Below, in pieces: positions 5,150-60,371 of a stretch of DNA of 64,000 bases. A program made the translations under genes and the position numbers. Origin of the DNA: Terebella lapidaria (taxonomy: Eukaryota; Annelida; Polychaeta; Terebellida; Terebellidae); the NCBI GenBank assembly GCA_949152475.1, contig OX424555.1, forward strand, positions 20,726,868 to 20,790,867. The letters run 5' to 3'. Position 1 is the stretch's first letter. Each line of letters starts with the position of its first letter. Below the pieces are notes generated by a model. The model did not search any database. It was given only the letters and a program-made list of their open reading frames with translations, and was not told where the DNA came from.

Positions 5150-5950
5150 TTATTGAAGGTCGAATTCAACATCGCTCAAATCACTGCATATGAATTTCCA
5201 TTTCGAATTGTTCGATAAAATAACAAAATTACAGCCAGATCAAACTTATATTATTGAAGTTATATTTCAACTCATAATATGTGCCAAACTTGGTTTCAAG
5301 TTGAAATTCAAACTAAAAGTTGACCAAAACTGCATTTCAAGATGACGAAATTGGAGTCAGATCGAACTTTCCGCCATGAGTTATATTTCAACTCATAATA
5401 TGTGCCAAACTTGGTTTCAAGTTGAAATTCAATCAACAGTAGACCAAAACTGCATTTCAAGATGACGAAATTGGAGTCAGATCGAACTTTTTGCCATAAG
5501 TTATATTTTAACTCATAATATGTGCCAAACATGGTTTAAAGTTGGAACTCAAACTAAAAGTTGACCAAAACTGCATTTCAAGATGACAAATTTGGACCCA
5601 AATCGAACTTTTCACCATAACTTTCGATAAAATAACGAAGTTACAGCCAGATCAAACTTATATTATTAAAGTTATATTTTAACTCATAATATGTGCCAAA
5701 CTTGGTTTCAAGTTGAAATTCAAACTAAAAATTGACCAAAACGGCATTTCAAGATGACGAAATTGGGGCCAGATCGAGCTTTTCACCATAAGTTATATTT
5801 TTAACTCATGATATGTGCCAAACTTGGTTTCAAGTTGAAATTCAATGTAAAAGTTGACCAAAACTGCATTTCAGGATGACAAAATTGGAGCCAGATCAAT
5901 GTTTTCACAAAAAGGTCTATTTTCACCCCAAATATGTTCCAAATTAAATT
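5150..5950 (+). repeat. Minisatellite, about 120-bp unit
   Basis: The word 'actcataatatgtgcc' recurs at about 5270, 5391, 5511, 5682 and 5803, giving spacings of 121, 120, 171 and 121 bases. Each unit also carries 'ggtttcaagttgaaattc' and 'gcatttcaagatgac'. The 171-base spacing shows one unit with extra material. Open frames crossing it (5308-5532 minus) are a by-product of the period being near a multiple of three. Units are diverged, so the array is not very recent. Confidence 0.85.
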
Positions 5951-8509: not shown

Positions 8510-8960
8510 ACAATGATAAATGTTAAATCGACGTCACCCCTGAGCTGAAATGTGTAAATTGGCCTCAACAGACAAAATGCTTGTAGATAGAGTGCATGCT
8601 TATTTTAACATAGGAAGTTGTATATGGTTCAACTAATGGTGACCTTGAACTTCACCTGAGATGACATGGAGTGTGAATTCTCGATGTCACGCCTGACAAG
8701 AAATGTGTAAATTGGCCTCTGGGAATGAAACACTTGCACATACATCTTAGGATTGTATAATGAACATACAGGAAGTCATAATACAGCACATCTTTTGGTG
8801 ACCTTGAACTTGAATGTAGACGACCTCGAAGGCTAAACATCATGGTCACGGCTGACTGAGATATGTAAATTGTCCTGTACAGACAAAAATACTTGTCGCG
8901 GAGCATATGTTTGTATTATGTACATATAGAAAGTAATATGCATCACACCTTATGGTGACA
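8510..8960 (+). repeat. Three-unit tandem repeat, about 155-bp unit
   Basis: The word 'tgtgtaaattggcc' and its variants occur at about 8551, 8704 and 8862. Each unit also has a 'gtgaccttgaactt' word and a 'cagacaaaa..cttgt' word. It is related in vocabulary (TGACCTTGA) to the satellite at 14.4 kb but has a different period and sequence. Confidence 0.7.
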
Positions 8961-10525
8961 GTTAAGTTCAGATATTGGATTGGCAAATCTCAACGTCATT
9001 ATGTCACCTGCAATGCTAAAAGCCAAAATTGCCCGATAACCTATCTTAGTCTTTGGGCTAATATTTTCACTTGAATCAATCATGCACATTTCAACATCGC
9101 TGACAAATATATGGTTTTTGCAACCATATAACCGTGTGATTTCGCTGTTGTTGGAATAAAAATCGTCACAATAATACAAGGTATGGAACATCTGATAAAC
9201 AGCAGGCGGGTCTGGATGAAACCACCGTGATACCGTATTCATTCGTAGGACTTCAATGACAACTACACGGAATCACTCGCTCGCACATCACGACAATCCC
9301 TGCGTGAGCCTTCATGACTTCATCAAATGCAACTCACAAACATGTTCGTGTCCCCAATTTTATCAACAGTTTCATGGTGAGATATCTAGATTTGTTAGTT
9401 TCTCGGAGTGACAGAAAATTATCTATTCACAACGACCACTAATAACGAATCACGATCCGATAATATTTTATATTCCGTATTTATAGCCATCTACATTATT
9501 CATGATTAATGTGATACCGGTTCCAATTTCCTAGTAATGCAGAGTGGAATGTTCATGCGGGGAAGGAGTGGTTGAAAATATGGCTAAATAGTAAATCATG
9601 TTGAGCGAAATACTGCAACATTTCTTTTCGGTAGGTATCTGACATATTCAGATATCACTGTGATAAGTGAAATACTTCGCGTGCCTCAACTGTGACCACG
9701 AAACCAGAAGATATATCAACCGCAATCGCTATGTGCTGTTAATCATAGCTATTCAGCACTAGTACATACTTTATTGAGAGCCAGAGCCAACAAAAAGGCT
9801 CAACGCTTAATTTCTGCAAAAAAACACAACATTCCACTGGCGAATCTTATCCAAAGTCTCGCTTAGCGATACAGGCATTGGAACAACTAAAACGAATAAT
9901 CATTATAATAGAATCAGAGCACGACCTCAAAAAATCAATTGGATCAACTGTAATAGATTTGAATTGCATAGGACTTTGGAAAGAGGATATATATTAGAAT
10001 ACACTTCAATATATCTTCTAACTTAAACAGATCGTAATTGGTACATTGCTCATGGGCATAAACATCTTGGAATATCCTTGTAATCACTAATTTCACACGG
10101 AAATTTGGCATTGGGATAGTTTCTCAACTTTTCAGTTTTGAGGATAGAATTCTGAAATTTGGTCGGTATGTATTGATTAATGCCAAATGAAAAGACAATG
10201 AAAACTTAAAGATAATGAAAATGAAAAGTTTCAAATTGATCCGACGGGCCAAAACAATGTTGGCAAGAATCATTCGAGGTCTTGCGTTCAAATTGACTTT
10301 AGTGTAACTTTTATTGGTGAGCACTTCGGAATATCGATAACAGTTCGTTAGTATGGGTTCAAATGTCTACGACTTATCATTTTTTCAAAAATCACACTCA
10401 CAGCTGATAGTCAATCATATTCACAAATCCCCTTGATTTTATTGTAATATGAGGTATGATGTTGTCGAATAGTGTGACTTAGTTTCATTTCTCCCATGTT
10501 ACAAATAATCATGAAGTACCCATAG
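8961..10525. other. Non-coding, nothing recognised
   Basis: No supported feature. Short minus-strand frames (8943-9242, 10124-10324) match no family I recognise. Confidence 0.45.
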
Positions 10526-13500: not shown

Positions 13501-14399
13501 AAAGAAATGCAAAAAGAGTAGTTTTAAGAAAATAAGGTGACAATTTCTAATCATCTGAACATGGTCAGTCATGTTCGGATGCCTCGTGATCAACCGGCGT
13601 GATCAAAGAGGTTCCCGACCGGAAGAAGAAAGTGAAAAACAGATAGGTAAACCCTACAAAATGAACATGATGCAGTCGCGAAAAATAGGGCCTATAAGAG
13701 TAAATGTTCATGTGAAATACATGGCACCACTTTGTGAGCGTAGTCTATGCAGCCGATAGCTATGCAGCATAGCTTCCAGATGTATAATGTAAACAAGAGC
13801 ATGCGTGTATTGTATGTGTACCAATATTATTCTACAATTGATTGATGATGAATAACAGAATAATAGACTTGAGTAGTCAAACCGGTACCTATCTGCCGAA
13901 GCGAAGAGGATTTCGTCCAAGGATAACATTCAATATATTCTGACTACGCCACATTTGCATTTTATTTGCAAGTGTTTGCACCCAAAGTGACTTACTGGCA
14001 ATATGAAAATAGACCACCCATAAGTCGATCGGTTGAATATCGTCAGAGTCTTTCAAAGGACGTAACTAGTTTTTATTGCCTGTGTAAACATGCAGAAAAT
14101 ATGTATTATGTAGCGAGAATACCTATTCTATTCAGCTGCTTCCATAGGATGTTAAATACATTCATCAACATGAAAGAAATCATCTGTCACTCGAACGCAG
14201 GTATGTTATTATAAAGTACGGATGATTATGTACATTCACCGAACTGTTGTGAAACAGTCATATTCAGCAAATATTTGAATATATTCAGTTATACTAGTGT
14301 TCGATGATTCCGAAAAAAATAAACACCAAATAACTAAAAAAATTAGCCCAATGGGCTAGAAAGGTTACCGGAGAAATATACAGAGTTAAGCCGAGAAAG

Positions 14400-15925
14400 T
14401 TGAAGGTCAAATTCAAGGTGACCACTGAAATCGCCATATCTCTAACCTTGAAAATGGGATCAAAGGTTAAATTCTAGATCACCAAACTATTCAGCATACA
14501 TCATTTCCTATATGTTCACTATGGACCCCTAAGCTGTAAATTTGATAATAAGCGAGATATAAGCAATTTGTAATCTGACTTTGAAAATAAAATGACTGAC
14601 CTTGAAATTTAGGTGAAAGGTCAAACTCAATATCATTAAAATATTCAGAATATCTCATTTCCTATATATTCACAATTGATTCCTAAGCTGTAAAGTCGAT
14701 AATAAGCAAGATATTAGCCATTTTGTCCTGTTGAGCTTGAAAATGAGGTCAAAAGTCAAACTCAAGGTCACTAGAATATTCAGCATATATCATTTCCTAT
14801 ATGTTCACAATTCATTCCTAAGCTGTAAAGTCGCTAAGAAGCAAGATATTGGCCATTTTGTCCTGTGACCTTGAAAATGAGGTCAAAGGTCAAATTCAAG
14901 GTCACGAGAATGTTCAGCATATATCATTTCCTATATGTTCACAATTGATTCCTAAGCTGTAAAGTCGATAATAAGCGAGATATTAGCAATTTTGTCCTGT
15001 GACCTTGGAAATGAGGTCAAAGGTCAAATTCAAGGTCACGAGAATATTCAGCATATATCATTTCCTATATGTTCACAATTGATTCCTAAGCTGTAAAGTC
15101 GATAATAAGCGAGATATTAGCAATTTTGTCCTGTGACCTTGAAAATGAGGTCAAAGGTCAAATTCAAGGTCATAAGAATTTTCAGCATATATCATTTCCT
15201 ATATGTTCAAAATTGATTCCTAAGCTGTAAAGTCGCTAATAAGCAAGATATTGGCCATTTTGTCCTGTGACCTTGAAAATGAGGTCAAAGGTCAAATTCA
15301 AGGTCACGAGAATATTCAGCATATATCATTTCCTATATGTTCACAATTGATTCCTAAGCTGTAAAGTCGATAATAAGCGAGATATTAGCAATTTTGTCCT
15401 GTGACCTTGGAAATGAGGTCAAAGGTCAAATTCAAGGTCACGAAAATATTCAGCATATATCCTTTCCTATATGTTCACAATTGATTCCTAAACTGTAAAG
15501 TCAATAATAAGCGAGATATTAGCCATTTTGTCCTGTGACCTTGAAAATGAGGTCAAAGGTCAAATTCAAGGTCACGAGAATATTCAGCATATATCATTTC
15601 CTATATGTTCATAACTGATTCCTAAGCTGTAAAGTCGATAACAAGCGAGATATTAGCCATTTTGTCCTATGACCTTGAAAATGGGGTCAAAGGTCAATTC
15701 AAGGTCATCAGAATATTCAGCATATATCATTTCCTATATGTCCACAATTGATTCCTAAGCTGTAGAGTCGATAATAAGCGAGATATCAGCCATTTTGTGC
15801 TCTGACCTTGAAATTGAGGTCAGAGCTCAAATTCAAGGTCACAAGAATATTCAGCGTATATCATTTCCTATATGTCCACAATTGATTCCTAGTCTCTAAT
15901 CTCAATATTAAGTGAGATATTAGGC
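14400..15925 (+). repeat. 134-bp satellite inside element copy 1
   Basis: The word 'gctgtaaag' (or close variants) recurs at about 14822, 14956, 15090, 15224, 15358, 15492, 15626 and 15759, a period of 134 (once 133), with more diverged units before and after: about 11 units in all. Each central unit holds 'tgaccttga', 'aggtcaaaggtca' and 'ttcaaggtcac'. Central units are nearly identical and the flanking ones diverged, as expected for unequal exchange. Confidence 0.95.
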
Positions 15926-16280
15926 ATAATGTGTCCCATTATAAAACATAGGAGAATTTAACATGGGAAAGTCCCATTTGGGCCGAGTTTGGGCCAAAAT
16001 GGTCCACTTCGAGCGATTCAAGCGCAACGAAATTTATAGACATCATAGGAGTACATATCAGGAGTGTTATGTATCAAAAAGAAAAAAAGTTACTGAACAG
16101 ATTTTGAGAAAATGGCCACCAAAGTCCAAAATCAGGCATTTTTCGTCGAAAACGGCCGCCATTTTGAAAAAAATGCGAAAATCAAAAAACTAAAAAATAC
16201 CTCCTTCTTGAATTATTTTTAAGTATTTTTGTGCAAAATTTCAGAAGAATTCGCCCGTAAACAAAAAAGATAAAAATGTG

Positions 16281-16330
16281 GACGACGACGACGACGACGG
16301 ACGACGACGGACGACGACGGACGACGGACG
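16281..16330. repeat. (GAC)n tract
   Basis: Tandem GAC/GGAC units within the right arm of the mobile element. The equivalent tracts in the other two copies (27905-27930, complementary strand; 60331-60371) are shorter and variable, so this is an intrinsic microsatellite of the family. Confidence 0.9.
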
Positions 16331-16458
16331 CAACGCCATGCCAATAGGTTATCGGACCATAGGTCCGGTAACCTAAAAACATGCATTTTCCCAATGTGAA
16401 TATAAACAACATCTACGGGAACAGCCAATGCCAATACTCGTGATATGCACATTGATAT

Positions 16459-27856: not shown

Positions 27857-30449
27857 TTTTAGGTTACCGGACCTATGGTCCGATAACCTATTGGCATGGC
27901 GTTGCGTCCGTCGTTGTCGTCCGTCGTCGTCCACATATTTATCTTTTTGTTTACGATCCAATTTTTCTGAAATTTTGCACAAAAAAGGCTTAACAATAAT
28001 TCAAGGAGCTATTTTTTCAGTTTTTTTATTTTCGCATTTCTCACAAAATGGCGGCCGTTTTCGACGAAAATTGTCTGATTTTGGACTTCGGCGCCATTTT
28101 CTCAAAATCTGATCAGTAACTTTTTTCTTTTTGATACATAACTCTCCTCATATATACTTCTATGATGTGTATAAGTTTTGTTGCGCTTAAATCGCTCGAA
28201 GTGGGCCATTTTGGCCCAAACTCGGACCAAATGGGACTTGCCCATGTTAAATTCTCCTATGTTTTATAATTATCACTAATATCTCACTTAATATGGAGAT
28301 CAGAGACTAGGAATCAACTGTGGACATATAGGAAATGATATATCCTGAATATTCTCGTGACCTTGAATTTGACCTCTGACCTCAGTTTCAAGGTCAGAGC
28401 AAAAATGGCTTATATCCCGCCTATTATCGACTACAGCTTAGGAATCAATGGTGAACATACAGGAAATGATATATGCTGAATATTCTCATGATTCTGATGA
28501 CCTTGAATTTGACCTCTGACCTCATTTTCAAGGCACAGGACATAATGGCTAATATCTGGCTTGTTATCGACATTTCAGCTTAGGAATCAATTATGAACAA
28601 ATAGGATATGATATATGCAGATTATTGTCATGACCTTGAATTTGACCTTTGACTTCATTTTCAAGGTCACATGACAAAATGGCTAATATGTCACTTATTA
28701 TCGATTGTACAGCTTAGGAATCAATTGTGGACATGTAGGAAATGGTTCTTGTGACCTTGAATTTAACCTCTGACCTCATTTTCAAGGTCAAGAGCGCAAA
28801 ATGGCTAATGTCCCACTATTTATCGACTTTACAGCTCAGGAATGAATTTCGAACATGAACGAAATGTTATATTCTGAATATTGTCAAGACTTTGAGTTGG
28901 ACCTTTGACCTAATTTTCAAGGTCACAGGACAAAATGGCCATTATCTCGCTTATTATCGACTCTACAGCTTAGGAATCAATTATGAACATATGGGAATGT
29001 AAGTATCAATCTATTACCACCAATACAGTCATATTTTGATGATGCCAATAACAAACATAAAATACAACATTTTGCAATAGAAACAAAAGCCCGACCAAAT
29101 AGTATATCCAAAGACACACTGGCGTCATCAGGAGCAGACAGTGTGTACATGTAGTTGTTTCTACTGTACACCTTATGGAATTAGCATACAACTGCCCAAC
29201 AACCAATGAACATATTTTAGAAATCCGAAACAAACCCCATGGAACAGATGTATGACAAGCACATAAGTACCTAATCACAAGCCAGAAGGCTACTGAGTTG
29301 ATGGTGTCCTCGGGGACAGATTCAACATCCGCCAGCAGTGACGCCGACTCAGTGGTATGAATGTAAGTATCAATCTATACCACCAATAGTCAGATTCTGA
29401 TGATGCGAATAACAAACATAAAATACAACATTTTGCAATAGAAACCATACAGAAATTATATATACAGATTAATTATTATCTGTATAATATGTATATATAA
29501 ATTATATATACAGATTATTCTCATAACCTTGAATTTGACCTTTGACATAAATTTCAAGGTCACAGGACTAAATGACTAATATCTTGCTTATTATCAATTT
29601 TACAGGTTAGGAATCAATTGTGAGCATATAGAAAATGATATATGCTGAATATTGCCATGACCTTGAATTCGACCTTTGACCTGATTTTCAGGGTTAAAGG
29701 ACACTATTGACTTTATGGCTTGGGAATCAATTGTGTACATATAGAAATGATATACACTGAATATTTCGATGACCTTGAATTTGAACTTATATTCAAGGTC
29801 AGAGCACAAAATGACTAATATCCCGCTTATTATCGACTTTACAGCTTAGGATTCAATAGTGAACATATAGGGAATGATATGCTGAATATTTTGGTGACAA
29901 TGAAGTTGACCTTTAACTTTAGGAATCAACAGCGAACAGAAAATGATATATGGTGAATATTCTCATGACCTTGAACTTGATTTTTGACCTAATTTTCAAG
30001 GTCAGATCACGAATGGCTTATATCTCACTTATTATCAACTTTACGGCTTTGGAATCAATTGTGGTCAAACTCCAAATGATATACGCTGAATATTCTCGTG
30101 ACCTTGAATTTGACCTTTGACCTCGTTTTCAAGGCACAGGACAAAATTGCTAATATCTGGCTTGTTATCGACATTACAGCCTACGAATCAATTATGAACA
30201 ATGATATATGAAGATTATTGTCATGACCTTGAATTCGACCTTCATTTTCAAGGCCACAGGACAAAATTGCTAATATCTCTCTGTTTATTGAATTTACAGC
30301 TTAGCAATCGACTGTGGACACGATATATGCTTAATATTATATATGCTGAACATTCTCTTGAATTTGAATTTAACCAGTGGCCTGGCTAGCATCTAAAATA
30401 TTGAACATATATTGTCCAGTAACCTATCTTTGGGCTTGGCCTAATTTTA
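27857..30449 (-). mobile_element. Minisatellite-bearing mobile element, copy 2
   Basis: Inverted relative to copies 1 and 3. The element (27862-30444) is flanked by TTTTA on both sides, which is TAAAA on the element's own strand. The hairpin end is at 27861-27889, then the shortened trinucleotide tract, the 'aaaatggcggccgttttcg' arm, a degraded satellite (about 28260-30390) and the opposite end near 30420-30444. The site without the element survives in paralogs (for example near 57424 and 25712), where the two flanks are continuous. A foreign coding-like segment sits inside the satellite at 29005-29460. The satellite units are much more diverged than in copies 1 and 3, so this is the oldest copy. 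Confidence 0.85.
29005..29460 (+). repeat. Dispersed coding-like segment inside copy 2
   Basis: Starts 'gtaagtatcaatctattac' and, 357 bases later, a second partial copy starts with the same word (29364). The translated core resembles that at 58125 (SDFDDANNKRK, ASSGAD and STVH motifs), but this copy has a stop inside. Related pieces occur at 22405-22540, at 40700-40907 (minus, inside a LINE) and twice in mobile element copy 3. I do not recognise the protein. The repeated GTAAGT start resembles a splice donor. Confidence 0.6.
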
Positions 30450-36105: not shown

Positions 36106-37164
36106 GGACATTCATACCACGCAAAATTCAAACTGATGGCTTTTATAAACGAGAGTCAATTACAATTTTTGTTCTACACATAGATTTAATGTTTATGGGG
36201 GGAAGGTATTTTGTTCTTAATACAAGAACCATTATACTTTCGTCTAGGAACAATGCGACATATAAAATATTATAAGGGACAAAGCGCCAACAGTCCATAT
36301 TTATTCAGCCAATCAACGCAATATTTTTGCACTTCTGTGACACCACTAAGCTGATGTATTATGAAATAAACATTATCGGCATAAGACCACATACGTGAAC
36401 AAAGTGTTGTTTTGTTTTTGCATGGCATCTGAACGAACCCATATATTTGGGTGATGTAATGCAAAAGCAATTGTTTGTTGTTAAAGTGATATTGGCAGGA
36501 AAACTATTTTTTTCGAAATCAGTTACATATATGCCTGTGGTCTCAGAAAAATAGGTTGCAAAACAAACTATGCTTGATCAGATGGATAAATCAACCATTT
36601 GACAGTACTAGCAGCCGCTTTTCTTTTGTTTTGTGCGCCACTCAGATTTGCTAGAACGCTCGATTTGCTAGAACATACACGAGTAAGCTGAAATCGCACT
36701 GCATCACGGGATACAAAGCACCAAGAATGGCGGTAATGTAAACAAACTCAAAATATCTCCACCAGAAATTCACAACGAAATCAATTAGAAAGGGGCGTGT
36801 GACTGGGCAAGATATATAGCTGTTAAGTTTTCTTCGTTCGATCAGAAAGATATGGAAAAATCCATAACTTGCTGCCAATATTATGGATAAATATTGAATT
36901 ATAAAAATATGGTGGTCGGGTAATAGTACTTGAAATGAGTAATAAGAGAACACCACTAAACAGAATTATATCAGTGTTAAGACACTGGACACCGCATAGG
37001 ATAATACATTATCTGGTTAAATCGAATAAAATGACATATCCACTTCACAACATAATATTCAAGCACCAAACCAAGATGGAGAATATCGGCGCTCAAAAAA
37101 AAACCGACACGACAATGCAGACATAAAGGGTTGCTGCTCTCTAAGGCTGTTTGTCGGCATTTCT

Positions 37165-38898
37165 GTGGAGTAGCGTCACACGTTCTGACACGGAGTCTCT
37201 TCCACCGAGAGGTTCGAGGTCATTGGGTGACGCCGAATCCGTAATTGGGTGAAAAAGGACGTAAATCTTGGCACGACTCATTGCTCCACGATAAAGCGTG
37301 AAAGCAAGAAAAAGAACCATGATATTTCCAGCAAATTTGCTCGATTGATCATACTGTAAAAGGGTGTCGATGAGAAAGCCGTGTAATGATGGCGGAGGTG
37401 ACTGCTGTTTAGCCATAATCCCTACTATATGTACAAAACGATGACCGTCCAACGGTATGTAGCACACAGTGTGCAGAAGTAGGAAGTAGGAAAAAAAACG
37501 TTTGTTTTTGTTTGTGTTCCGTTTGTTTTCTGTTGGAGTTCAAGTCCGGGGTCACTTGTAGGGATTGTTAAATGTAACGGTTTATTTCCACGGACGCATC
37601 ATCATCCAATAGCCCGTCTCTGTGGCGAAAACACAGGCACTTGTATAGAAGCGAGCGAGAACAACAGACAACTGCAGCCAGAATGATAATGATGGGGATG
37701 AAGGCATTCACAAAGTCATCCCCTTCTGCCAATTTATGGTGAATGGATTTATAGTCATATAGCTCCATACACACCAGTCTTTTTTCCCAAAAGCGTATGC
37801 GCCATAAAAAAATACTAATATTCATATGCACACGGCAGTAATTGCTGCTGTTATCATTAAAACACGCGGTCCCCAGCAATGACAGAACTTCCGGCAGAAG
37901 CTCCCTGGTGTCATGCATTTGGCGCTGAGAAATACGATGCACCAGACGGCCAGGAACTTGGGAGATACAAGAGAGGAACGTCGAAAACTGGCACCAGCCT
38001 CCTACGTGAAACATGGACAGATTGACGCCCATGTCCTCGATCCACGTGTGGAACAAAGATCTGCCACGAATATATCCGTGAGATAGTAGGTACCATGCTG
38101 TGCGCAAGAGATTGGTTCCCTCAATGTGAGGTACTTAGCAGGTTTCCCAGAAATTCAAGAGGCTATATGCAAGGTAGATATTACATATGAAACTGACGTA
38201 CTATCTGCTGTAACTCCATTAACCCAGGCTCCAGGATCATCAACTGACAACTGCAGCCAGAATGATAATGATGGGGATGAAGGCATTCACAAAGTCATCC
38301 CCTTCTGCCAATTTATGGTGAATGGATTTATAGTCATATAGCTCCATACACACCAGTCTTTTTTCCCAAAAGCGTATGCGCCATAAAAAAATACTAATAT
38401 TCATATGCACACGGCAGTAATTGCTGCTGTTATCATTAAAACACGCGGTCCCCAGCAATGACAGAACTTCCGGCAGAAGCTCCCTGGTGTCATGCATTTG
38501 GCGCTGAGAAATACGATGCACCAGACGGCCAGGAACTTGGGAGATACAAGAGAGGAACGTCGAAAACTGGCACCAGCCTCCTACGTGAAACATGGACAGA
38601 TTGACGCCCATGTCCTCGATCCACGTGTGGAACAAAGATCTGCCACGAATATATCCGTGAGATAGTAGGTACCATGCTGTGCGCAAGAGATTGGTTCCCT
38701 CAATGTGAGGTACTTAGCAGGTTTCCCAGAAATTCAAGAGGCTATATGCAAGGTAGATATTACATATGAAACTGACGTACTATCTGCTGTAACTCCATTA
38801 ACCCAGGCTCCAGGATCATCAACTGATTCTGCCTGTCCATCTCTGCGCCCACTGTCCAAGTCTCATTCAACATTCTCGCCATCTGTCTCTATCATGGC
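37165..38898 (-). pseudogene. Class-A receptor pseudogene (unit 3)
   Basis: Clear relative of the intact receptor at 60687-61835. Breaks visible: a 5-base deletion near codon 8 that leads to an early stop (shared with the unit 4 copy), a deletion in the TM2 region, an extra G in the third transmembrane segment ('aacttgggagat' against 'aacttggagat' in the intact gene), further indels before TM4 and between TM5 and TM6, and an internal identical 579-bp duplication. Long fragments remain readable (179 codons at 37568-38107 and 108 codons at 37141-37467), including the Cys of TM3, the TM5 region and a TM6 segment with a CYxP-like motif. It cannot make a full receptor. Confidence 0.9.
37667..38824. 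repeat. Identical 579-bp tandem duplication
   Basis: Positions 37667-38245 and 38246-38824 are the same at every line I compared, in direct orientation and immediately adjacent. The duplicated piece covers the N-terminal region to about TM5 of the receptor pseudogene. Total identity, in a region where paralogs differ at many sites, means either a very recent event or an assembly duplicate. Confidence 0.95.
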
Positions 38899-38925
38899 AA
38901 CTTGCAGCTGTCTTCAAGACATACA

Positions 38926-38929
<4 letters not shown>

Positions 38930-38964
<35 letters not shown>
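38930..38964. repeat. (AAT)n microsatellite
   Basis: About 11-12 AAT units just upstream of the unit 3 receptor pseudogene. The intact locus has only 'cctgaataaaac' here, and unit 4 has 'cctgaattataatg', so the expansion is specific to this copy. Confidence 0.95.
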
Positions 38965-38965
<1 letters not shown>

Positions 38966-40025
38966 CAGAATTTGTTTGACGCAGCAGACATTGATATTCC
39001 TTGAAAAGTTTTTCCAATTGAGACTTTGGTAATTTGATTCCACTCTTGAAGTATCATCATGAAATATGTTCCTGTCTCATTTAAATGGACAGGTGCATAA
39101 TGGTTAAAAATGGATATAACACCATCAGGATTCTTAATGAACGGTCTATTTTGAAAGACGACCAATTACAGTTTTAGATGCACGTCAATGTCCAAATGCA
39201 ATATAGCGAAATTATTTATATTTCATGTATATTGAAAATTTTTAGGTAGGAAACTCTTGACTGTTAACATATATGTGTTCCATTCATAGGTGAATCATTG
39301 CTCATGAATGGCTCTTGTCCGAATACTAGGAACTCACCTGTTTAAGGTTACAAACGGTCGGAAAGATAATAGGTTCCAGACATTTCCAATTATGTGGCGA
39401 GTCTGAACTTTGCTGGCCCTTATCACGGAGTCGACATTCACAATGTGGAAATAGGCATTGGTGTCACAAGAGTTGGATTTGGCTTAAGTCGTGTGCTATG
39501 CTAATGTAGTAATTCAAACGAAAGATGCATTTATTGGCAGTATAGACCAATACAACACCTAAGTGTCGCCAGGCCTGAGTTAAATAATAAAGCAAATCCA
39601 TGTGAATGAAAGCCCTGAATCTTTTTGCCATATATACACCAGTCTAGACAATGACATATGTTTATATTGACTAGTTTAGCCTTAAGATTAATAAGTGTGG
39701 ATTACATCAGGAACTGTTTTGATGACAAAGACATTGGCCAAGTAATGCAATGTTCTTACAGAATGTAATGTCGTGCAATTATCACTGTGCTGGTTGCTAA
39801 TATAGTTGTCCATTTGTATTTGCAAATGCTGTGTCACGTGAATGATACATACGTCTATATCTACTATTCAGATAATGATGGTAAATATATAATATGCATG
39901 TACATTATGCTACCTAATTGCATGCTAAAATGTAAGTTTCGTATGCTATGGCTTCTTCAACCTGTTCACGTCTTTTTGTTCGATTAATATTACTGTTATG
40001 CCAAACCATACTGTGTTATAATTGG
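38965..40025 (+). repeat. Distal flank of unit 3
   Basis: Homologous to 31291-32450 and 43980-45010; it holds the 'ttatgtggcgagtctgaac', 'aagtgtcgccaggcctgag' and 'gcatgctaaaatgtaag' landmarks and no gene. Confidence 0.65.
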
Positions 40026-41123
40026 GCATGCATGTACTCTCTTTATTATGTATTGTAGGCCGTCGGCCCATATACATCACAAAATACATTCATACATACA
40101 GGCATACAAACAAGATAAAAACAAGTGTCGTCAGATATGGCCAAACAGAATGTGGGCATTTGTGTGAAGTTTAACAGAACAAAATGAAATCTTTTCGGAG
40201 CTTGAAACAGTGGTACAGAAAATGGCTGATTATAACGATACAATTCTTTTTTTTTTTCTTAAGTAAGTTGTACATGCTGTTATGGCTGATGCTCTCAATA
40301 TCTGTTTTGAACACAGGGCCTAATATAATATCTCGTAAATCTTTATATGCTGGACAGTCGGTAAAAAATGATGTTCATCTTCAACAACTTCAATATTTGA
40401 AGTGTGATTACAATATTTACATAGTCTTTCCTCTCTAGTTGTGAAATTTGGGCCATGTCTGCCAGTTTCTACTTCTAGTGAATGATTACTACATCTGAAT
40501 TTGGCTATTATCGAAATGAAATTCTTCTCTCTGAGTACATCAAGATAGAAGGCTCGTTCAAATATGTTTGCAATGTTGCTGTATAAAGTGCATTTTACTA
40601 CTTTCTGATATATTTGCAGACCACTCCTGTAAAAAACAATCCTGGACTCGTTGCTTAAATAAATTCAGAAAAAATCTCATTATTTTCAACTCCTTGTGAC
40701 ATAGGTTGTTGGGCAGTTGTATACTAATTCCATGAGGTGTACAGTAGAAACAACTACATTTAGCACACTGTCTGCCCTTAAGGACGCCAGTGTGTCTTTT
40801 GATAAACCGTTGGGTCGGGCTTTGTTTCTATTGCAAAATGTATTTTACGTTTGTTATTGGAATCATCAAAATTTGGCCATATTGGTGGTAATAGATTGAT
40901 ACTTACTCCCATACATGCAGAAATCCATATCTACTCAATAAGTTTTCCACTTTTCTGCAGCATGTTCTTCTGCCACTATCATGCAGAGACTTATTCAACA
41001 AGTAACATTTATATGTCAAACGGTTTTCTATCATTTCACCACTTTGAACCAGTACTTAATAAGTTTGCTGAAATATTCAGAGTACAAAGGAAATCTGCCA
41101 CATTCACCAAGCATACATGTACT
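40026..41123 (-). mobile_element. LINE fragment, 3' end, with inserted segment
   Basis: The insertion at 40039-41110 is flanked by a 13-base duplication with one mismatch ('gcatgcatgtact' 40026-40038, 'gcatacatgtact' 41111-41123) and is absent from the paralogous site near 45018. On the minus strand, pieces of the region downstream of a LINE reverse transcriptase are readable in shifting frames: GRFPLYSEYF (about 41080), YGFLHVW (about 40915), LFKQRVQDCFLQEWS (about 40650), KFRCSNHSLEVETGRH (about 40480), ERLCKYC (about 40420) and TDCPAYKDLRD (about 40345), the usual order in this group. AATAAA lies at the 3' end (40042-40047). Several frameshifts make it dead. A roughly 205-base foreign segment (40700-40907) interrupts the reading frame. 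Confidence 0.85.
40700..40907 (-). repeat. Dispersed segment inserted in the LINE frame
   Basis: On the minus strand it starts GTAAGTATC and stops near 'atgtcacaag', between the LINE motifs YGFLHVW and LFKQRVQD that normally lie close together. It is related to segments inside the minisatellite mobile elements (29005, 29364, 58125, 58497). The insert begins with GT and ends with AG relative to the LINE strand, and a GGAG word stands at both junctions. Confidence 0.6.
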
Positions 41124-41564
41124 TCACTTGTGCGTCAAACGGCAATTTGCCACCAAATTGCAAACATTTAGCATAAACAGTTTTTAAAAAGGTGACAATT
41201 CAATCCAATGATGAATTTTAGCCCAAGATGGCTTCTTGGAGAGCATGCATATTTCGGCACCTCGTTGTGTTTATATTCAGTAGGAATGGAAGTATTGTCA
41301 AACAAACATATTCATTTCAACAGATTGCACTGCTACAAAAGCAGTAAATGCACAAAATCGCGTGCGGACCCAGAAATTATATGACAGGGATACATTTACC
41401 ATTTGCATCAAAGTTGGCAGTGTAACCCAATGTTAATTTTAGCCGTGTCATATAAATTGCACAGGATAGTGTGCATTTGCGGTTGTTATAGCGGCACAAA
41501 AATGGTGTAACCAGTTAGAAAAATCCAGTCGATTGTTTCATTAGTGGCAATTTTGGCTCTTTTA

Positions 41565-44500
41565 ACGACAAATACTGTTGCTCCACATGGAGGACAAAAG
41601 CCGATGGCACAACTAATAGCAAAACTCGTCGATTACACATTGATGTCCATCCATATCCAATTGATCTGGCGCAAAGGGAACAGAGCTTCGATCCTCTTTT
41701 CGCTTGAGGCAACACTGGTGAACTTGTGATGGTGGTGCGCTCTCCACAACATAGAATGCGGGTTTATTTTACAACATAGGATCAATCGGTATATACGTGG
41801 AAGTACCCATGTATTGTGGCGTTGTTCACCGGCCATTATAATTCGCATGTGTCTTATGTGCGAGTATTGCAAATAGATTTTATCATATATCTCCCCAGGC
41901 ACCTACATCTACGGGGTGTTAAATTTACCATAAGAATGAAGATCATGATATATTTATCAGGCGAGATAAGTAAAAGAATGAAATAGATGTTCCAAACTGA
42001 AATTAACTGTAATTTGAGTATACTTGTGCAATATCATGTAGCAAACGGCTATCGACCAAGGACATTATACCACATGAAATCCAAATTGATGGCTGTTATA
42101 AACAAGAGGCAATTCAATTTTTATTCTACTTCAATTCTTATGTATGGAGGGTGATTTTGTTCTCAATGGAAAGTGTCATTAAAGTTTCGTCTAGGAACAA
42201 TGTGGCTTATGAAATATTATGAGGGACATAGTGCCTATATTCTATATTTATTTCAGCCAATCAACGCAATGTTTTTGCACTTCTGTGACACCACTAGGCT
42301 GATGTCACACGAAAATCTCATCGGTATAAGAGTACATACGAAAATACATACATAAATTTTGTTTTGTTTTAGCATTGGACCTGACGGAACCCATATATTT
42401 GGGTGATGTAATGCAAAAGTAATTGTTTGTTGTTAAAATCGTCCTGGTAATATTGAATTATGAGTGGGTGGTCGGGTAATATTACTTGAAATAAGAAATA
42501 GCTGTGTATGTGTGAAAATGAAGTTCACGAAGATGATTATATTCAATATGCATAAGAGAACACCACTAAAGACATGCATCAGTTTTAGGACACTGGACAC
42601 TGCATAGGACAGTACACTCTCTGGTTAAATCACATAACATGACATGTCCACTTCACAACATTATTCTCAGGCACCGAATCAAGATGGAGAATATCGCCTC
42701 TCAAAATATTCTCGACACGACGATGCAGACATAAAAAGGTTGCTGCTCTCTCAGGCAGTTTGTCGGCATGTCTGTGGAGTAGCGTCACACGTTCTGAAAT
42801 GGAGTCTCTTCAACCCAGAGGTTCGAGGTCACCGAGTAACGCCAAATCCGTAATTGGACGAAAAAGGAGTAAATCGCGGCACAACACACTCATTGCTCCA
42901 CGACAAAGCGGGAAAGCAAAAAAAAGAACAATGATATTTACCAGCAAATTTGCTCGATTTAACATACTGTAAAAGGGTGTCAATCAGAAAGCCGTGTAGT
43001 GATGGCAGAGGTGGCTGCTGTTGAGCCATATTCCCTACTATATGTACAAAACGATAGCCGTCCAACGGTAGGTAGCACACAGTGTGCAGAAGTAGGAAGT
43101 AGAAAAACGATTCTGTTTGTTTTCTGTTGGAGTTCAAGTCCAGAGTCACTTGTTGGGATTGTTGAGTGTTAAGGTTTATTTCCATGGACGTATCAACATC
43201 CAATAGGTCGTCTCTGTGGCGAAAACACAGGCAATTGTATGGAAGCGAACGAGAACATCAGACATTCGCAGCGAGACTGATAATGTTGGGGATGACGGCA
43301 TTCACAAAGGCACCCCCTTCTGCCAAATCATGGTGAATGGAGTAATAGAACTCCATACACACCAGTCTTGTCCCAAGAGTGTATGCGTCATACAAAATAC
43401 TAATATTCATATACACAATCACGGCAATAATTGCTGCTGTTATCATTAAAACACGTGGTCCCCAACTGTGACAGAACTTCCTAGGGAAGCTCCCTGGTGC
43501 CATGCATTTGATGCTGAGAAATACGGACGGTGTACCACACGGCCAGGAACTTGGAGATACAAGAGAGAAACGTCGAAAACTGGCACCAGCCTCCGATGTG
43601 GAACATGGACAGATTGACGCCCATGTACTGGATCCACAAGTGGAACAAAGTTAAGATCTGCCACGACTATCACAATGAAATAGTAGCTACCATGCTGTGC
43701 GCAAGTGATTGGGTCCCTCAACGTGAGGTACTTAGCAGGTTTCCCAGAAATCCCAGGAACTATATACAAAGTAGATAATACATATGAAGCTGATGTACTA
43801 TCTGCTGTAACTCCATTAACCCAGGCTCAGGGATCATCAACTGCCTGTCCATCTCTGTGCCCACTATCCAGGTCTCATTCAACATCCTCGCCATCTGTTT
43901 TTATCATGGCAACCTGCAGCTATCTTCAAGACATACACCTGAATTATAATGAAAACCAGTTTTTTTTTTTGACGTAGCAGACATTGATATTGAAAAGTTG
44001 GTCCAATTGAGACTTGGGTAATTTGATTCCACTATTGAATTATCATCAGGACATATGATCGTGTCCCATTTCAATGGTGCATAATGGTGAAGTAATGAAT
44101 ATACCACCATAACGATTTTTCATGAACAGTTTGGAAGACAATCAGTTATAGTTTTAGATGCACGTCAATGCCTAAACGCAATATAGCAAAACAATTTATG
44201 TTTCATATATATTGAAAATGTTCAGGTAGGTAACTCTTGACTGTTACCATTTATATACTTCATTCATAGGTGAACCGTTGCTCATGAATGGATCTTGTCC
44301 GAATACTAGGAACTCACCTGTGTCAGGTTATAAACCGCCAGAAAGATAAAAGATTCCGGACATTTCCAATTATGTAGCAAGTCCAATTATGTTTGCTGGC
44401 CCTTATCACGAAGTCGAAATTTACAGGGTGGAAATGGATATGGGTGTCACAAGAGTTGGATTTGGCTTAAATGGTGTGCTATGCTAATGTAGTAATTCAA

Positions 44501-45993: not shown

Positions 45994-48900
45994 ACTTGCC
46001 GGAATCTTCGATTTTGGCAAGTATGTTGGTCGGTTGGTTTGTACTGGTGTCTGTCTGTCTGTTTGTTTGTTCGCCCTCTAGTGTCTACATTTCTCACCTG
46101 ATTTTTTCCTGACTTAGTGAATATATTCTGTAGGTTCATGGCTCGCGACTGCACACTTTTGGTGATTTTAGGTGGAAGGTCACGGTCAAGGTCGTGCAAA
46201 ACAATGAAAACACATAAATGGCCATAGCTCCGGTTCTAATCGTCCTAGAGACTTCAAATTAAGTGCATATTGTAGATGAACTCGAGTTCCATCTTCTGTA
46301 ACCTTGACCTTGACATTTGACCTTGACCTTGAGAAGTTCGCCATGAGGTGAAAGTCAAGGTCAAGTACGAAGGTCAGCGAATCATATCGTGTAGTATATT
46401 GTTGGAAAGGTCTTACCCCCGCTGATTGGAGTGATACCTTATTTTCGGCGCTGCGACGTAAACTGACGTCACAATGACGTCATAAACGTCAAAAATCCGA
46501 AATTTCAAAGGGCCATAACATCGTCAATAGTGTATGGAATCCCTCGAAAGTTGATATGCATTTTGACAGCATTGACCTCTACGAACTGAAGTACAAAGGT
46601 CAAAGTTCAAGGTCAAGGTCATCGAAATCCCAGAAAAACACGTTTCTGGTAATAACAACTGTTTTAATCATGGTGGGCTCATAAAATTTGAACCATGTCA
46701 TTCAGAAGAGGTATATCAATCAGACAAATATGTCAATTCCATGATTGACCTCGAACTTTGTCTATAATCTGACAAAACTTAATCAGGACTCTATGAGGAT
46801 TTCGGATTTTACAGATATTTTTTATGTTTTCATGGCTCCAATTTTCACAAATTTACTGAACATTCAATTCTGAAGCATTTCATGCAGTCAGTTGAAGTGT
46901 TATTTCTAGTTTATGGTCCACTTTTCACATTTGGAATAAATTGAAAACTCGCCGAGATATCGAAGTAGAAAGAGCAGTGGGGTGAATCTGATTCTCAACC
47001 CGATAATTCACTTGCCAATAAGCTGTAGAAACGATTATCCCCTGTGGACATGTCCCCTTCTAAATATACACACTCGGTTGCATAGTATTACAGTTCATCA
47101 TATATGTTTCCAAGTGCACATCTCAAACAACATTTCTTTTGTTTTCTGATTCAGATGTGTCCAACTGATATAATAAACTCTAGAACTCATGTCTAAATAC
47201 ACTCTGGGTCAAGCGACAGGACACTTTATATCAGAACTTTATTACTTGCCGGAATCTTCGATTTTGGCAAGTATGTTGGTCGGTTAGTTTGTACTGGTGT
47301 CTGTCTGTCTGTTTGTTTGTTCGCCCTCTAGTGTCTACATTTCTCACCTGATTTTTTCCAGACTTAGTGAATATATTCTGTAGGTTCATGGCTCGCGACT
47401 GCACACTTTTGGTGATTTTAAGTGGAAGGTCAAGGTCATGCAAAACAATGAAAACACATAAATGGCCATAGCTCCGGTTCTAATCGTCCTAGAGACTTCA
47501 AATTAAGTGCATATTGTAGATGAACTCGAGTTCTATCTTCTGTAACCTTGACCTTGACATTTGACCTTGACCTTGAGAAGTTCGCCATGAGGTGAAAGTC
47601 AAGGTCAAGTACGAAGGTCAGCGAATCATATTGTGTAGTATATCGTTGGAAAGGTATTGGCCCCCTGATTGCAGTGATACCTTATTTTCGGCGCTGCGAC
47701 GTAAACTGACGTCACAATGACGTCATCAAAAATCCGAAATTTCAAAGGGCCATAACATCGTCAATAGTGTATGGAATCCCTCGAAATTTGATATGCATTT
47801 TGACAGCATTGACCTCTACAAACTGAAGTACAAAGGTCAAAGTTCAAGGTCAAGGTCATCGAAATCCCAGAAAAAACACGTTTCTGGTAATAACAACTGT
47901 TTTAATCATGGTGGGCTCATAAAATTTGAACCATGTCATTCAGAAGAGGTATATCAATCAGACAAATATGTCAATTCCATGATTGACCTCGAACTTTGTC
48001 TATAATCTGACAAAACTTAATCAGGACTCTATGAGGATTTCGGATTTTACAGATATTTTTTTATGTTTTCATCCACTTTTCACATTTGGAATAAATTGAA
48101 AACTCGCCGAGATATCGTAGTAGAAAGAGCAGTGGGGTGAATCTGATTCTCAACCCGATAATTCTCTTGCCAATAAGCTGTAGAAACGATTATCCCCTGT
48201 GGACATGTCCCCTTCTAAATATACACACTCGGTTGCATAGTATTACAGTTCATCATATATGTTTCCAAGTGCACATCTCAAACAACATTTCTTTTGTTTT
48301 CTGATTCAGATGTGTCCAACTGATATAATAAACTCTAGAACTCATGTCTAAATACACTCTGGGTCAAGCGACAGGACACTTTATATCAGAACTTTATTAC
48401 TTGCCGGAATCTTCGATTTTGGCAAGTATGTTGGTCGGTTGGTTTGTACTGGTGTCTGTCTGTCTGTTTGTTTGTTCACCCTCTAGTGTCTACACTTCTC
48501 ACCTGATTTTTTCCAGACTTAGTGAATATATTCTGTAGGTTCATGGCTCGCGACTGCACACTTTTGGTGATTTTAAGTGGAAGGTCAAGGTCATGCAAAA
48601 CAATGAAAACACATAAATGGCCATAGCTCCGGTTCTAATCGTCCTAGAGACTTCAAATTAAGTGCATATTGTAGATGAACTCGAGTTCTATCTTCTGTAA
48701 CCTTGACCTTGACATTTGACCTTGACCTTGAGAAGTTCGCCATGAGGTGAAAGTCAAGGTCAAGTACGAAGGTCAGCGAATCATATTGTGTAGTATATCG
48801 TTGGAAAGGTATTGGCCCCCTGATTGCAGTGATACCTTATTTTCGGCGCTGCGACGTAAACTGACGTCACAATGACGTCATCAAAAATCCGAAATTTCAA

Positions 48901-51440
48901 AGGGCCATAACATCGTCAATAGTGTATGGAATCCCTCGAAATTTGATATGCATTTTGACAGCATTGACCTCTACAAACTGAAGTACAAAGGTCAAAGTTC
49001 AAGGTCAAGGTCATCGAAATCCCAGAAAAACACGTTTCTGGTAATAACAACTGTTTTAATCATGGTGGGCTCATAAAATTTGAACCATGTCATTCAGAAG
49101 AGGTATATCAATCAGACAAATATGTCAATTCCATGATTGACCTCGAACTTTGTCTATAATCTGACAAAACTTAATCAGGACTCTATGAGGATTTCGGATT
49201 TTACAGATATTTTTTTATGTTTTCATCCACTTTTCACATTTGGAATAAATTGAAAACTCGCCGAGATATCGTAGTAGAAAGAGCAGTGGGGTGAATCTGA
49301 TTCTCAACCCGATAATTCACTTGCCAATAAGCTGTAGAAACGATTATCCCCTGTGGACATGTCCCCTTCTAAATATACACACTCGGTTGCATAGTATTAC
49401 AGTTCATCATATATGTTTCCAAGTGCACATCTCAAACAACATTTCTTTTGTTTTCTGATTCAGATGTGTCCAACTGATATAATAAACTCTAGAACTCATG
49501 TCTACACTCTGGGTCAAGCGACAGGCCACTTTATATCAGAACTTTATTACTTGCCGGAATCTTCGATTTTGGCAAGTATGTTGGTCGGTTGGTTTGTACT
49601 GGTGTCTGTCTGTCTGTTTGTTTGTTCGCCCTCTAGTGTCTACATTTCTCACCTGATTTTTTCCAGACTTAGTGAATATATTCTGTGGGTTCATGGCTCG
49701 CGACTGCACACTTTTGGTGATTTTAGGTGGAAGGTCAAGGTCAAGGTCATGCAAAACAATGAAAACACATAAATGGCCATACCTCCGGTTCTAATCGTCC
49801 TAGAGACTTCAAATTAAGAGCATATTGTAGATGAACTCGAGTTCTATCTTCTGTAACCTTGACCTTGACATTTGACCTTGAGTGTTCGCCATGAGGTGAA
49901 AGTCAAGGTCAAGTACGAAGATCAGCGAATCATATTGTGTAGTATATCGTTGGAAAGGTCTTGGCCCCCTGATTGCAGTGATACCTTATTTTCGGCGCTG
50001 CGACGTAAACTGACGTCACAATGATGTCATCAAAAATCCGAAATTTCAAAGGGCCATAACATCGTCAATAGTGTATGGAATCCCTCGAAATTTGATATGC
50101 ATTTTGACAGCATTGACCTCTACGAACTGAAGTACAAAGGTCAAAGCTCAAGGTCATCGAAATCCCAGAAAAACACGTTTCTGGTAATAACAACTGTTTT
50201 AATCATGGTGGGCTCATAAAATTTGAACCATTTCATTCAGAACAGGTATATCAATCAGACAAATATGTCAATTCCATGATTGACCTCGAACTTTGTCTAT
50301 AATCTGACAAAACTTAATCAGGACTCTATGAGGATTACGGATTTTACAGATATTTTTTATGTTTTCATGGCTCCAATTTTCACAAATTTACTGAACATTC
50401 AATTCTGAAGCATTTCATGCAGTCAGTTGCAGTGTTATTTATAGTTTATGGTCCACTTTTCACATTTGGAATAAATTGAAAACTCGCCGAGATATCGAAG
50501 TAGAAAGAGCAGTGGGGTGAATCTGATTCTCAACCCGATAATTCACTTGCCAATAAGCTGTAGAAACGATTATCCCCTGTGGACATGTCCCCTTCTAAAT
50601 ATACACACTCGGTTGCATAGTATTACAGTTCATCATATATGTTTCCAAGTGCACATCTCAAACAACATTTCTTTTGTTTCTGATTCAGATGTGTCCAACT
50701 GATATAATAAACTCTAGAACTCATGTCTAAATACACTCTGGGTCAAGCGACAGGCCACTTTATATCAGAACTTTATTACTTGCCGGAATCTTCGATTTTG
50801 GCAAGTATGTTGGTCGGTTGGTTTGTACTGGTGTCTGTCTGTCTGTTTGTTTTTTCGCCCTCTAGTGTCTACATTTCTCACCTGATTTTTTCCAGACTTA
50901 GTGAATATATTCTGTAGGTTCATGGCTCGCGACTGCACACTTTTGGTGATTTTAGGTGGAAGGTCAAGGTCAAGGTCATGCAAAACAATGAAAACACATA
51001 AATGGCCATAGTTCCGGTTCTAATCGTCCTAGAGACTTCAAATTAAGTGCATATTGTAGATGAACTCGAGTTCTATCTTCTGTGACCTTGATCTTGACAT
51101 TTGACCTTGACCTTGAGAAGTTCGCCATGAGGTGAAAGTCAAGGTCAAGTACGAAGGTCAGCGAATCATATCGTGTAGTATATCGTTGGAAAGGTCTTAG
51201 CCCCCTGATTGGAGTGATACCTTATTTTCGGCGCTGCGACGTAAACTGACGTCACAATGACGTCATAAACGTCAAAAATCCGAAATTTCAAAGGGCCATA
51301 ACATCGTCAATAGTGTATGGAATCCCTCGAAATTAGATATGCATTTTGACAGCATTGACCTCTACGAACTGAAGTACAAAGGTCAAAGTTCAAGGTCAAG
51401 GTCATCGAAATCCCAGAAAAACACGTTTCCGGTAATAACA
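45991..51440 (+). repeat. Tandem array of about 1.2-kb units
   Basis: The word 'attacttgccggaatcttcg' begins units at 45991, 47241, 48396, 49546 and 50775, giving lengths of 1250, 1155, 1150 and 1229 and a partial fifth unit. Units 2 and 3 share a deletion of about 90 bases (between 'tatgttttcat' and 'ccacttttcac'), so one was copied from the other. Every unit has clusters of AGGTCA words near its start and middle, two neighbouring CRE palindromes (one mutated in unit 4), and AGGTCAAAGTTCA (mutated in unit 4). A 64-codon frame starting MSKYTLGQATG is open in several units, and so is the opposite strand; because neighbouring units are nearly identical, conservation of the frame proves nothing. 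Confidence 0.95.
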
Positions 51441-52350
51441 TCCGTTTGAATTGTCATAGCTATCGGGCGTATATGTCAATTTTATGATTGACCTTGAACT
51501 TGGTCAGGAAAATAAGGTCATATGAGGAATACTTCAAGGTCAAATTTTAAAACTAACTGAAACCTATCAAGTAGTATATTAAATGAAAGGTCTTGACTCC
51601 CTGGTACATACTTCATCATCAGTTTTGAGATGTGACGTTTATTGACGTCTCGTTGACGTCATAAACGTTAATTTATCGAAATTTCAAACGGTTATAGTGT
51701 CCACAAATCTTGTTCGATTCTGATGAAATTGTACAGGTATATTATATATCTCCGTGCACAGGCAATGCACAATTTTCGTGACTCAAGGTCAAAGGTCAAG
51801 GTCAAGATCAAGGAAAAGTTCAAAATCACATAAATGGCCATAATTTTGGAACTAATCGCCATAAAGAGTTCAAACTAGGACCATACTGTAGCATATCAAA
51901 AGGTCTTTCTTATGTGTCTTTGAATGTGACCTTTGACCTTGACCTTGAGAAGTTCGCCATAGGTCAATGCCATGTACGAAGGTCAGTGCACCATATCAAG
52001 TAGCATACTATTAGAAAGGTCTTGGTCTCCTGATTCCAGTGATATCTTATTTCCGGCGCTATGACATTCAGTGACGTCACAAAGACGTCATAAACGTCAG
52101 ATTTTCAAAATTTGAAAATGCCAAATCCCAGAAAAAAACACCTTTTTGGTAATCACTTCTGCTTGAATCTTTGTATGCTCATGAAATTTGAATCATATCA
52201 TTCAGAACAGGCATGACACTCAGACTTATATGTTAAATGCATGATATGCCTTGAACTTGGTCAGAAAAATGAAGTCACATGAGCAAACTTTCAAGGTCAA
52301 GTTTTGAAAATCGTTGAAACGTGTCAAATATCCATTCCGGCAAGTGTGTG
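51441..52350 (+). repeat. Diverged tail of the 1.2-kb array
   Basis: Keeps the order of unit landmarks in diverged form: 'cacataaatggccataat' (51826), 'gaccttgagaagttcgcca' (51940), 'cagtgacgtcac' (52069), 'cgtcataaacgtca' (52086). The edge near 52337 reads 'attccggcaagt', the inverse of the 'acttgccggaat' with which the array starts, so the array as a whole may have short inverted ends. Confidence 0.75.
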
Positions 52351-60330: not shown

Positions 60331-60371
60331 TGGACGACGCCGACACCGACGCCGACGCCGGACGCCGGACG
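60331..60371. repeat. GAC/GCC trinucleotide tract
   Basis: Counterpart of the (GAC)n tract in element copy 1, here as 'gacgccgacaccgacgccga'. Confidence 0.85.

Follow-up and report, generated by a model that had tools for sequence, protein, structure and literature searches.

Why should a tandem array in an annelid genome repeat nuclear-receptor words in unit after unit, and which of these words, if any, has been kept? The question is raised by a 134-bp satellite in the window, that is, in the whole stretch of 64,000 nucleotides analysed here (Terebella lapidaria, assembly GCA_949152475.1, contig OX424555.1, positions 20,726,868 to 20,790,867 of the forward strand). A preliminary description had read it as a transposon-borne satellite in which every central unit is a cluster of perfect receptor sites, with emphasis on the DR1 word of HNF4/RXR-type receptors.

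Receptor words in the 134-bp array

On TRF the array (Table 1) comprises 9.9 copies with 92% matches. The six perfect AGGTCAAAGGTCA words (DR1) that had been described are found with exact starts at 14880, 15014, 15148, 15282, 15416 and 15550, and the three motifs said to lie close together all fall inside 39 bp of the unit, this core typically reading TGACCTTGA, AGGTCAAAGGTCA, TTCAAGGTCA. The wording "every central unit" was too broad, as perfection holds for the six middle units but not for the four outer ones, which have one or two changes in the DR1 word; in the diverged first unit the DR1 word is unmatched within two mismatches. The word TCAAGGTCA is present twice per 134-bp unit as an inverted outer pair (word 1 and word 3) and matches exactly the NR5A/ERR-type monomer word TCAAGG(T/C)CA, the ERR motif being a word of this type. 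Allowing up to two mismatches, the DR1 word occurs 61 times in the window, a number that none of 100 dinucleotide shuffles attained (mean 1.62), while exact TCAAGGTCA occurs 91 times against a mean of 0.53 in 100 such shuffles. Set against the shuffles, neither count is due to chance.

The array is the central repeat of a HINE-like element

The array is indeed transposon-borne, as had been claimed: its flanks are transposon ends, paralogous empty sites exist for two copies, and the whole has the anatomy of a HINE (non-autonomous Helentron), of which the 134-bp array is the central repeat. Three copies of the element (A, B and C) and an older relative, D, are contained in the window. In element orientation, copy A begins with a T-run, the subterminal inverted repeat (subTIR) AGGTTACCGGACC, a complementary inner repeat and a GTC/GTCC microsatellite, continues through further sequence into the array, and finishes with the subTIR TCCGGTAACCT, a palindrome and a T-run. 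The layout of the 5' end is AGGTTACCGGACC, 3 bases, the complementary GGTCCGATAACC and then the GTC/GTCC repeats. The subTIRs AGGTTACCGGA/TCCGGTAACCT are found on both ends of copies A and C, with one mismatch in B, as well as in many of 20 sampled loci, in many of which the same ends adjoin 134-bp arrays, with nested insertions and other central repeats. The 3' palindrome TTAGCCC..GGGCTA(A) is present in copies A and C and is imperfect in B and D. Relative D carries TCAAGGTCA at 8640 and 8799, and DR1 is absent from it within two mismatches.

According to the text of PMC7492417, Cg_HINE of the Pacific oyster has a subTIR, a complementary inner repeat and a GTC/GTCC-type microsatellite at one end, and a subTIR and a palindrome at the other. 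The likeness of our element to HINE and Cg_HINE covers both ends, the central tandem repeats and the T/A-rich targets (PMC7492417; PMC4067079), the traits that these texts give for HINEs being subTIRs of 11-15 bp, insertion into T(A) runs without target-site duplication, and central repeats that are frequent and not obligatory. The empty sites lie in paralogous sequence at 21.7-22.6 kb for copy A and near 42515 for copy C; both are A-rich stretches, where a short AAAA duplication is indistinguishable from a variable number of A/T. The longest stop-to-stop frame overlapping copies A-C has 133 aa, and a Pfam search at E 0.01 with the five frames of this kind gave no family.

The arrays of copies B and C are interrupted by a segment of ~450-500 bp (28998-29492 and 58127-58631), which is 90% alike in the two and lies in opposite relative orientations. 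By eye it contains donor sites of the GTAAGT type, and a partial copy of it is seen at 40700-40913; it is possibly a captured host gene fragment. Elsewhere in the window, a candidate seven-helix receptor gene, so called from its appearance, is duplicated (36942-43843 and 60454-61853), one of the copies having a 388-aa open frame on the minus strand (60687-61853) that gave one 48% match and no Pfam family.

Table 1. Positions in the window of the HINE-like elements and of their parts.
Feature	Position	Strand	Remarks
Copy A, whole element	about 14343-16376	-	read from 16376 towards 14343
Copy A, 3' palindrome (TTAGCCC..GGGCTA)	14343-14359	-	beside A/T run
Copy A, 3' subTIR	14362-14372	-	complementary to 16363-16374
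Copy A, diverged first unit	14440-14569	+	85-86% to consensus
Copy A, array of 134-bp units	14597-15927	+	core TGACCTTGA, AGGTCAAAGGTCA, TTCAAGGTCA
Copy A, GAC/GGAC microsatellite	16281-16326	-	GTC/GTCC in element orientation
Copy A, 5' subTIR with complementary inner repeat	16346-16374	-	subTIR 16363-16374, inner repeat 16346-16357
Copy B	27859-30444	+	older, opposite orientation; ends about 27859-27889 and 30414-30444
Copy B, degenerate arrays	28276-28997 and 29493-30383
Copy C	57832-60416	-	ends 57832-57862 and 60387-60416
Copy C, arrays	57875-58126, 58632-59630 and 59854-59983
Relative D	8610-9061	+	same 3'-end type, strongly diverged units; subTIR 9031-9042
Different HINE-like element	45995-52345	+	inverted ends CTTGCCGGA/TCCGGCAAG, tandem unit of 1.15-1.25 kb

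Unit families and genome-wide abundance of the words

Twenty cluster loci (162 kb), picked for holding a perfect DR1, were examined for unit types with TRF. Besides the 134-bp family they contain one of 147 bp (TTTAAGGTCAAGGTCAAAGGTCATCC), word-free arrays, and a 454-bp type that in L017 is bounded by the ends known from the 134-bp element. DR1 is carried by two of the unit families, the 134-bp and the 147-bp one, and the 134-bp-type arrays listed for the sampled loci have 3 to 18 units. Taking loci and window together, AGGTCA is in the consensus of 44 of 65 non-redundant arrays, a share biased by the choice of loci, and is absent from that of the other 21. An array with such a consensus at L018:3111-5493, which has 16 copies and is a sister of the 147-bp family, would serve as a natural control for receptor tests. 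A further array without AGGTCA in its consensus, of 121-bp units at 5257-5943 in the window, is followed by a GC-rich trinucleotide run and a hairpin, a HINE-like layout by eye, and has related arrays at L012:7511-8183 and in L040. By eye, the AGGTCA words have a companion on their strand, CGAGATAT (CCGAGATCTG in L036), in four unit families that differ otherwise, namely the 134-bp unit, the 147-bp unit (L012), the units at 46953 and 48108 of the window, and L036; a common origin or a second required motif are both possible.

In the assembly of 761,603,190 bases, perfect DR1 occurs 59,461 times (29,352 + 30,109), about 78 per Mb, against 49 occurrences (19 + 30) of the reversed pattern, and TCAAGGTCA occurs 364,916 times (182,701 + 182,215), one per 2.1 kb, against 5,590 (2,838 + 2,752) for its reversed form. 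For comparison, the looser DR1 motif RGKTCAnRGKTCA is given in Table 1 of PMC1785376 as occurring 11,230 times in the human and 16,250 times in the mouse genome. A sample independent of the words was taken as 28 evenly placed 3-kb blocks (84 kb). It holds TCAAGGTCA 30 times, in 9 of the 28 blocks, and its reversed form 0 times; perfect DR1 was found 0 times whereas the genome mean predicts about 6.6, hence DR1 is clustered in the genome. TCAAGGTCA, two of which lie in each unit, occurs 25 times over the first 20 blocks, more often than any other 9-mer of the unit (median 1). The 8 added blocks differ, with 5 occurrences against 25 of GTGACCTTG, the cause being a 50-bp satellite in L050 that contains ACAAGGTCA. 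This satellite (L050:1-1763, 35 copies) carries ACAAGGTCACG, a near but inexact form of TCAAGGTCA. As to relatives elsewhere, three exact patterns searched in viral_contigs and one in genome_contigs gave 0 matches.

Divergence of the words and of the rest of the unit

Divergence was measured on units covered to at least 60%, which retained 212 of 247 rows of the 134-bp family and 120 of 144 of the 147-bp family; the several constraint tests in this and the following section overlap in their data, and their P values are nominal. Among the 39 unit rows of the window, 53 of 985 word positions are changed, compared with 301 of 3,161 outside the core. The preliminary description had proposed comparing rates inside and outside the AGGTCA words, and in the 134-bp family the words are indeed slower, at 5.3% versus 9.8% base-matched. 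With all words taken together (212 units, 38 arrays), 0 of 10,000 random base-matched sets were as low, and the true placement ranked 1 of 134 shifts. In these units word 1 diverges by 4.1%, the two DR1 halves by 5.3% and 7.1% and word 3 by 5.2%, the rest of the unit being at 9.8% and its non-CpG part at 8.6%. Singly, the base-matched tests give P=0.007 for word 1, P=0.039 for word 3, and P=0.06 and 0.21 for the DR1 halves. Relative to the non-CpG rest, the ratios of the outer words are 0.48 (CI 0.35-0.62) and 0.61 (CI 0.50-0.74); for the DR1 halves the raw ratios to the rest are 0.62 (CI 0.47-0.79) and 0.83 (CI 0.67-0.98), in loci that were picked for perfect DR1. Moreover, in four related terminal-type units 1 of 120 word positions is changed versus 50 of 361 outside the core, and none of their 11 fixed differences from the consensus is in a word (P=0.05).

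The 51 young units, more than 95% identical to the consensus, show 2.9% in word 1, 1.4% and 2.7% in the DR1 halves and 1.1% in word 3, the non-CpG rest being at 2.7%. Given this little difference, most words are under weak constraint, or none, once a copy has inserted. Nor do the words lag behind other positions in the 147-bp family (P=0.50; 120 units in 18 arrays).

The second HINE-like element of the window also contains AAGGTCA words. When one of its units is compared with the diverged last copy, the alignable part shows differences at 5 of 48 positions in words and at 75 of 304 elsewhere (P=0.027), and a longer, partly unalignable comparison at 18 of 72 and 183 of 475; its five near-identical copies display no clear difference (4/344 in words, 39/2,388 elsewhere). 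The same element holds 10 of the 12 CRE-like TGACGTCA of the window, starting at 46464-46482 and repeated up to 52072, some of which survive in the diverged last unit.

Parsimony and distant relatives

In order to lessen the effect of shared ancestry, parsimony changes were counted on a tree of the 192 distinct units among 202 that were covered to at least 75%. On internal branches the outer TCAAGGTCA pair has 1.28 changes per site versus 2.71 at base-matched positions (P=0.005), and DR1 2.58 versus 2.90 (P=0.40). Terminal branches give 4.89 versus 6.28 for the outer pair (P=0.018) and 5.50 versus 6.57 for DR1 (P=0.11). In total, the outer pair stands at P=0.001, DR1 at P=0.18, and all words together at 6.93 versus 9.16 changes per site (P=0.002). 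A separate, smaller parsimony analysis, in which 33 of 39 rows were kept, did not set DR1 apart either (P=0.51). Hence, by parsimony on the 192 units, the constraint sits on the outer TCAAGGTCA pair and not detectably on DR1. Two details weigh against a receptor reading of the pair. Word 3 alone reaches P=0.12 in total and P=0.04 on internal branches, and its changes fall most often on positions 20 and 27, the two Gs that a bound receptor would be expected to shield. In addition, TATATCATT (positions 54-62), a block that contains no receptor word, evolves at almost the pace of word 1, with 5.78 versus 5.22 changes per site.

Relatives were also collected with an anchor profile built from positions 44-98 only, the words being excluded, which gave 220 matches, of which 218 were used. 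Within 60 bases upstream of the 204 strong matches, TCAAGGTCA is found in 142 and perfect DR1 in 83. Of the 14 weak matches, 12 have TCAAGGTCA and none has DR1 in either tested form, while the median 9-mer of the same unit region is kept in 1 of 14. Four of the 14 are by eye degenerate 134-bp units, and TCAAGGTCA is present in 8 of the other 10; as 4 of these 10 are sister copies, the independent weak relatives are few. Furthermore, older units in L044, one of the evenly placed blocks, resemble TTCAAGGTCATCTGAGGTCAACCTCAAGGTCACC, in which the spacing is of 4 bases at the place taken by DR1 in the 134-bp family. TCAAGGTCA is thus among the best-preserved features of the element's lineage, and we infer from the relatives that it is the old and persistent word and DR1 a derived one.

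What could keep the words

The emphasis on DR1 stood as far as the raw divergence of both halves, which is below that of the rest, and gave way in the base-matched and parsimony tests, which are not significant for it. As a selected feature it is moreover less well supported, since 0 of the 14 weak relatives carry it and the words of the 147-bp family are unconstrained. The DR1 reading needs to be replaced by one centred on the extended half-site: the persistent feature looks like a candidate monomer NR5A/ERR-type site kept along amplifying lineages, and DR1 is probably a by-product.

The reading we favour, plausible while falling somewhat short of an even chance, is that TCAAGGTCA has been kept through binding by host NR5A/ERR receptors, which would aid amplification, with DR1 hitch-hiking. 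A host NR5A (FTZ-F1/LRH-1) or ERR receptor would bind TCAAGGTCA as a monomer site; set in a row, these sites would make the element's chromatin accessible or its transcription stronger in the germ line or early embryo, so that lineages keeping the sites would amplify better. NR5A receptors are expressed in the invertebrate germ line. A single copy, once inserted, would hardly be maintained and would decay near-neutrally. DR1 (AGGTCAAAGGTCA) would have come about in the 134-bp and 147-bp families through the distance at which adjacent half-sites lie, and its roughly 59,000 copies would be owed to hitch-hiking; this reading allows for an influence on nearby genes or on the receptor pool but does not require one. 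In its favour are the HINE anatomy with two empty sites, the excess of TCAAGGTCA in the genome and in the evenly placed blocks, the low divergence of the outer words, the internal-branch parsimony, the weak relatives, the terminal-type units, the diverged last unit of the second element and the precedent of NR5A2 in SINE B1. Against it count the non-receptor block that is nearly as slow, the behaviour of word 3, the young units, the unconstrained 147-bp family, the 21 of 65 arrays lacking AGGTCA, the five near-identical copies of the second element and the choice of the 20 loci for perfect DR1.

The alternative that survives best, rather unlikely in our estimate, is that the words have no function and are passengers of copy number and tandem expansion, their low divergence reflecting homogenisation and family history. 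It would account for word 1 in young units (2.9% versus 2.7%), for the unconstrained 147-bp family and for the non-receptor block that is nearly as conserved, but it sits badly with the base-matched tests and the internal-branch parsimony, with the retention of TCAAGGTCA in relatives found without using the words, and with the DR1 halves, which are similar words and yet not clearly protected.

Less probable again is recognition of the words by the element's own mobilisation machinery (a Helentron Rep/helicase/endonuclease or a partner), the array then being a row of binding or nick sites. Selection for transposition would lead one to expect what is observed, more constraint on internal branches than on terminal ones and none on word 1 in young units, and several central-repeat types of the element group keep the word. 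Against this, the word equals a receptor site exactly, the central repeats of oyster HINEs as given in the text of PMC7492417 are unrelated, and the word is not obligatory for the element because word-free arrays exist here. The overall pattern, with constraint on internal branches, relaxation after insertion and the outer pair ahead of DR1, is in keeping with selection on the amplifying element itself, whether it would act through a receptor or through the element's own machinery.

That the DR1 clusters themselves were selected as HNF4/RXR-type enhancers or receptor sinks is very improbable: the 59,461 perfect copies as against 11,230 of the looser motif in the human genome (PMC1785376, Table 1), the presence of DR1 in two unit families and the low raw divergence of both halves speak for it, but base-matched tests (P=0.06 and 0.21) and parsimony (P=0.51, 0.40 and 0.18) are not significant for DR1, it is absent from the 14 weak relatives, and the words of the 147-bp family lack constraint. 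Least credible of all is a hairpin (TGACCTTGAA/TTCAAGGTCA) kept for rolling-circle replication, since the outer pair does fold as a 10-bp stem in single-stranded DNA but with a z-score of -1.55, 16 of 200 shuffles folding as well, 0 of 25 changed pairs in the window units have a compensating change on both sides (18 lose their pairing and 7 turn into G-T), and some relatives have the word without an inverted partner.

Relation to known systems and significance

The HINE element type is already known, as is the spread of host-factor sites by transposons, Helentrons included. DINE-1-like elements, as cited in PMC4067079, supply sites for the male-specific-lethal complex in Drosophila miranda; they resemble the present case as Helentron-type elements spreading sites for a host DNA-binding complex and differ from it in factor and species, and in that binding is known there, the words described here being candidate sites. 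Likewise, Caenorhabditis Helitrons are rolling-circle transposons spreading sites of a host factor, in that case heat-shock elements, for which occupancy and induction of nearby genes are described (PMC6927752); the factor is another one, and the Terebella counterpart is a matter of sequence. Alu has multiplied DR2 and HNF4 sites, with a sink role discussed (PMC1785376; PMC3252374), but there the DR2 sites come largely from CpG deamination in a retrotransposon, in contrast to tandem arrays in a DNA transposon. A further parallel is SINE B1 of the mouse: according to the text of PMC11102866, NR5A2 is a monomeric binder of TCAAGG(C/T)CA, on nucleosomes as well as elsewhere, and this word in SINE B1 is among its targets when the zygotic genome is activated. 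The likeness lies in a TCAAGG(C/T)CA monomer word within a mobile element, while that element is a SINE, ours a Helentron with arrays, and the binding was established in the mouse.

Receptor words in long arrays at such a scale look like a new variant. The running text of PMC7492417 contains neither AGGTCA, GGTCA, TGACC nor "transcription factor", and that of PMC4067079 neither GGTCA nor "nuclear receptor"; among the matches listed, none reports receptor words from the tandem repeats of bivalves or of Helitrons, which is not proof of absence.

Since TCAAGGTCA is kept better than most of the unit, these elements may be spreading ready-made candidate receptor sites. A more specific version, that Helentron central repeats evolved, and kept along their amplifying lineages, dense arrays of NR5A/ERR-type pioneer sites opening chromatin in the germ line or early embryo, is tentative and somewhat less likely than the receptor reading favoured above; if true, it would parallel, in a DNA transposon, the case of SINE B1 and NR5A2 in the mouse, with up to about 365,000 words involved. 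At one TCAAGGTCA per 2.1 kb, competition for receptors by such words would become measurable. No role is assigned to the satellite-like central repeats of Helentrons in the texts of PMC7492417 and PMC4067079, and if their best-kept word is a pioneer-receptor site, the repeats would gain an explanation open to test, and the spread of receptor sites by a DNA transposon would have an example.
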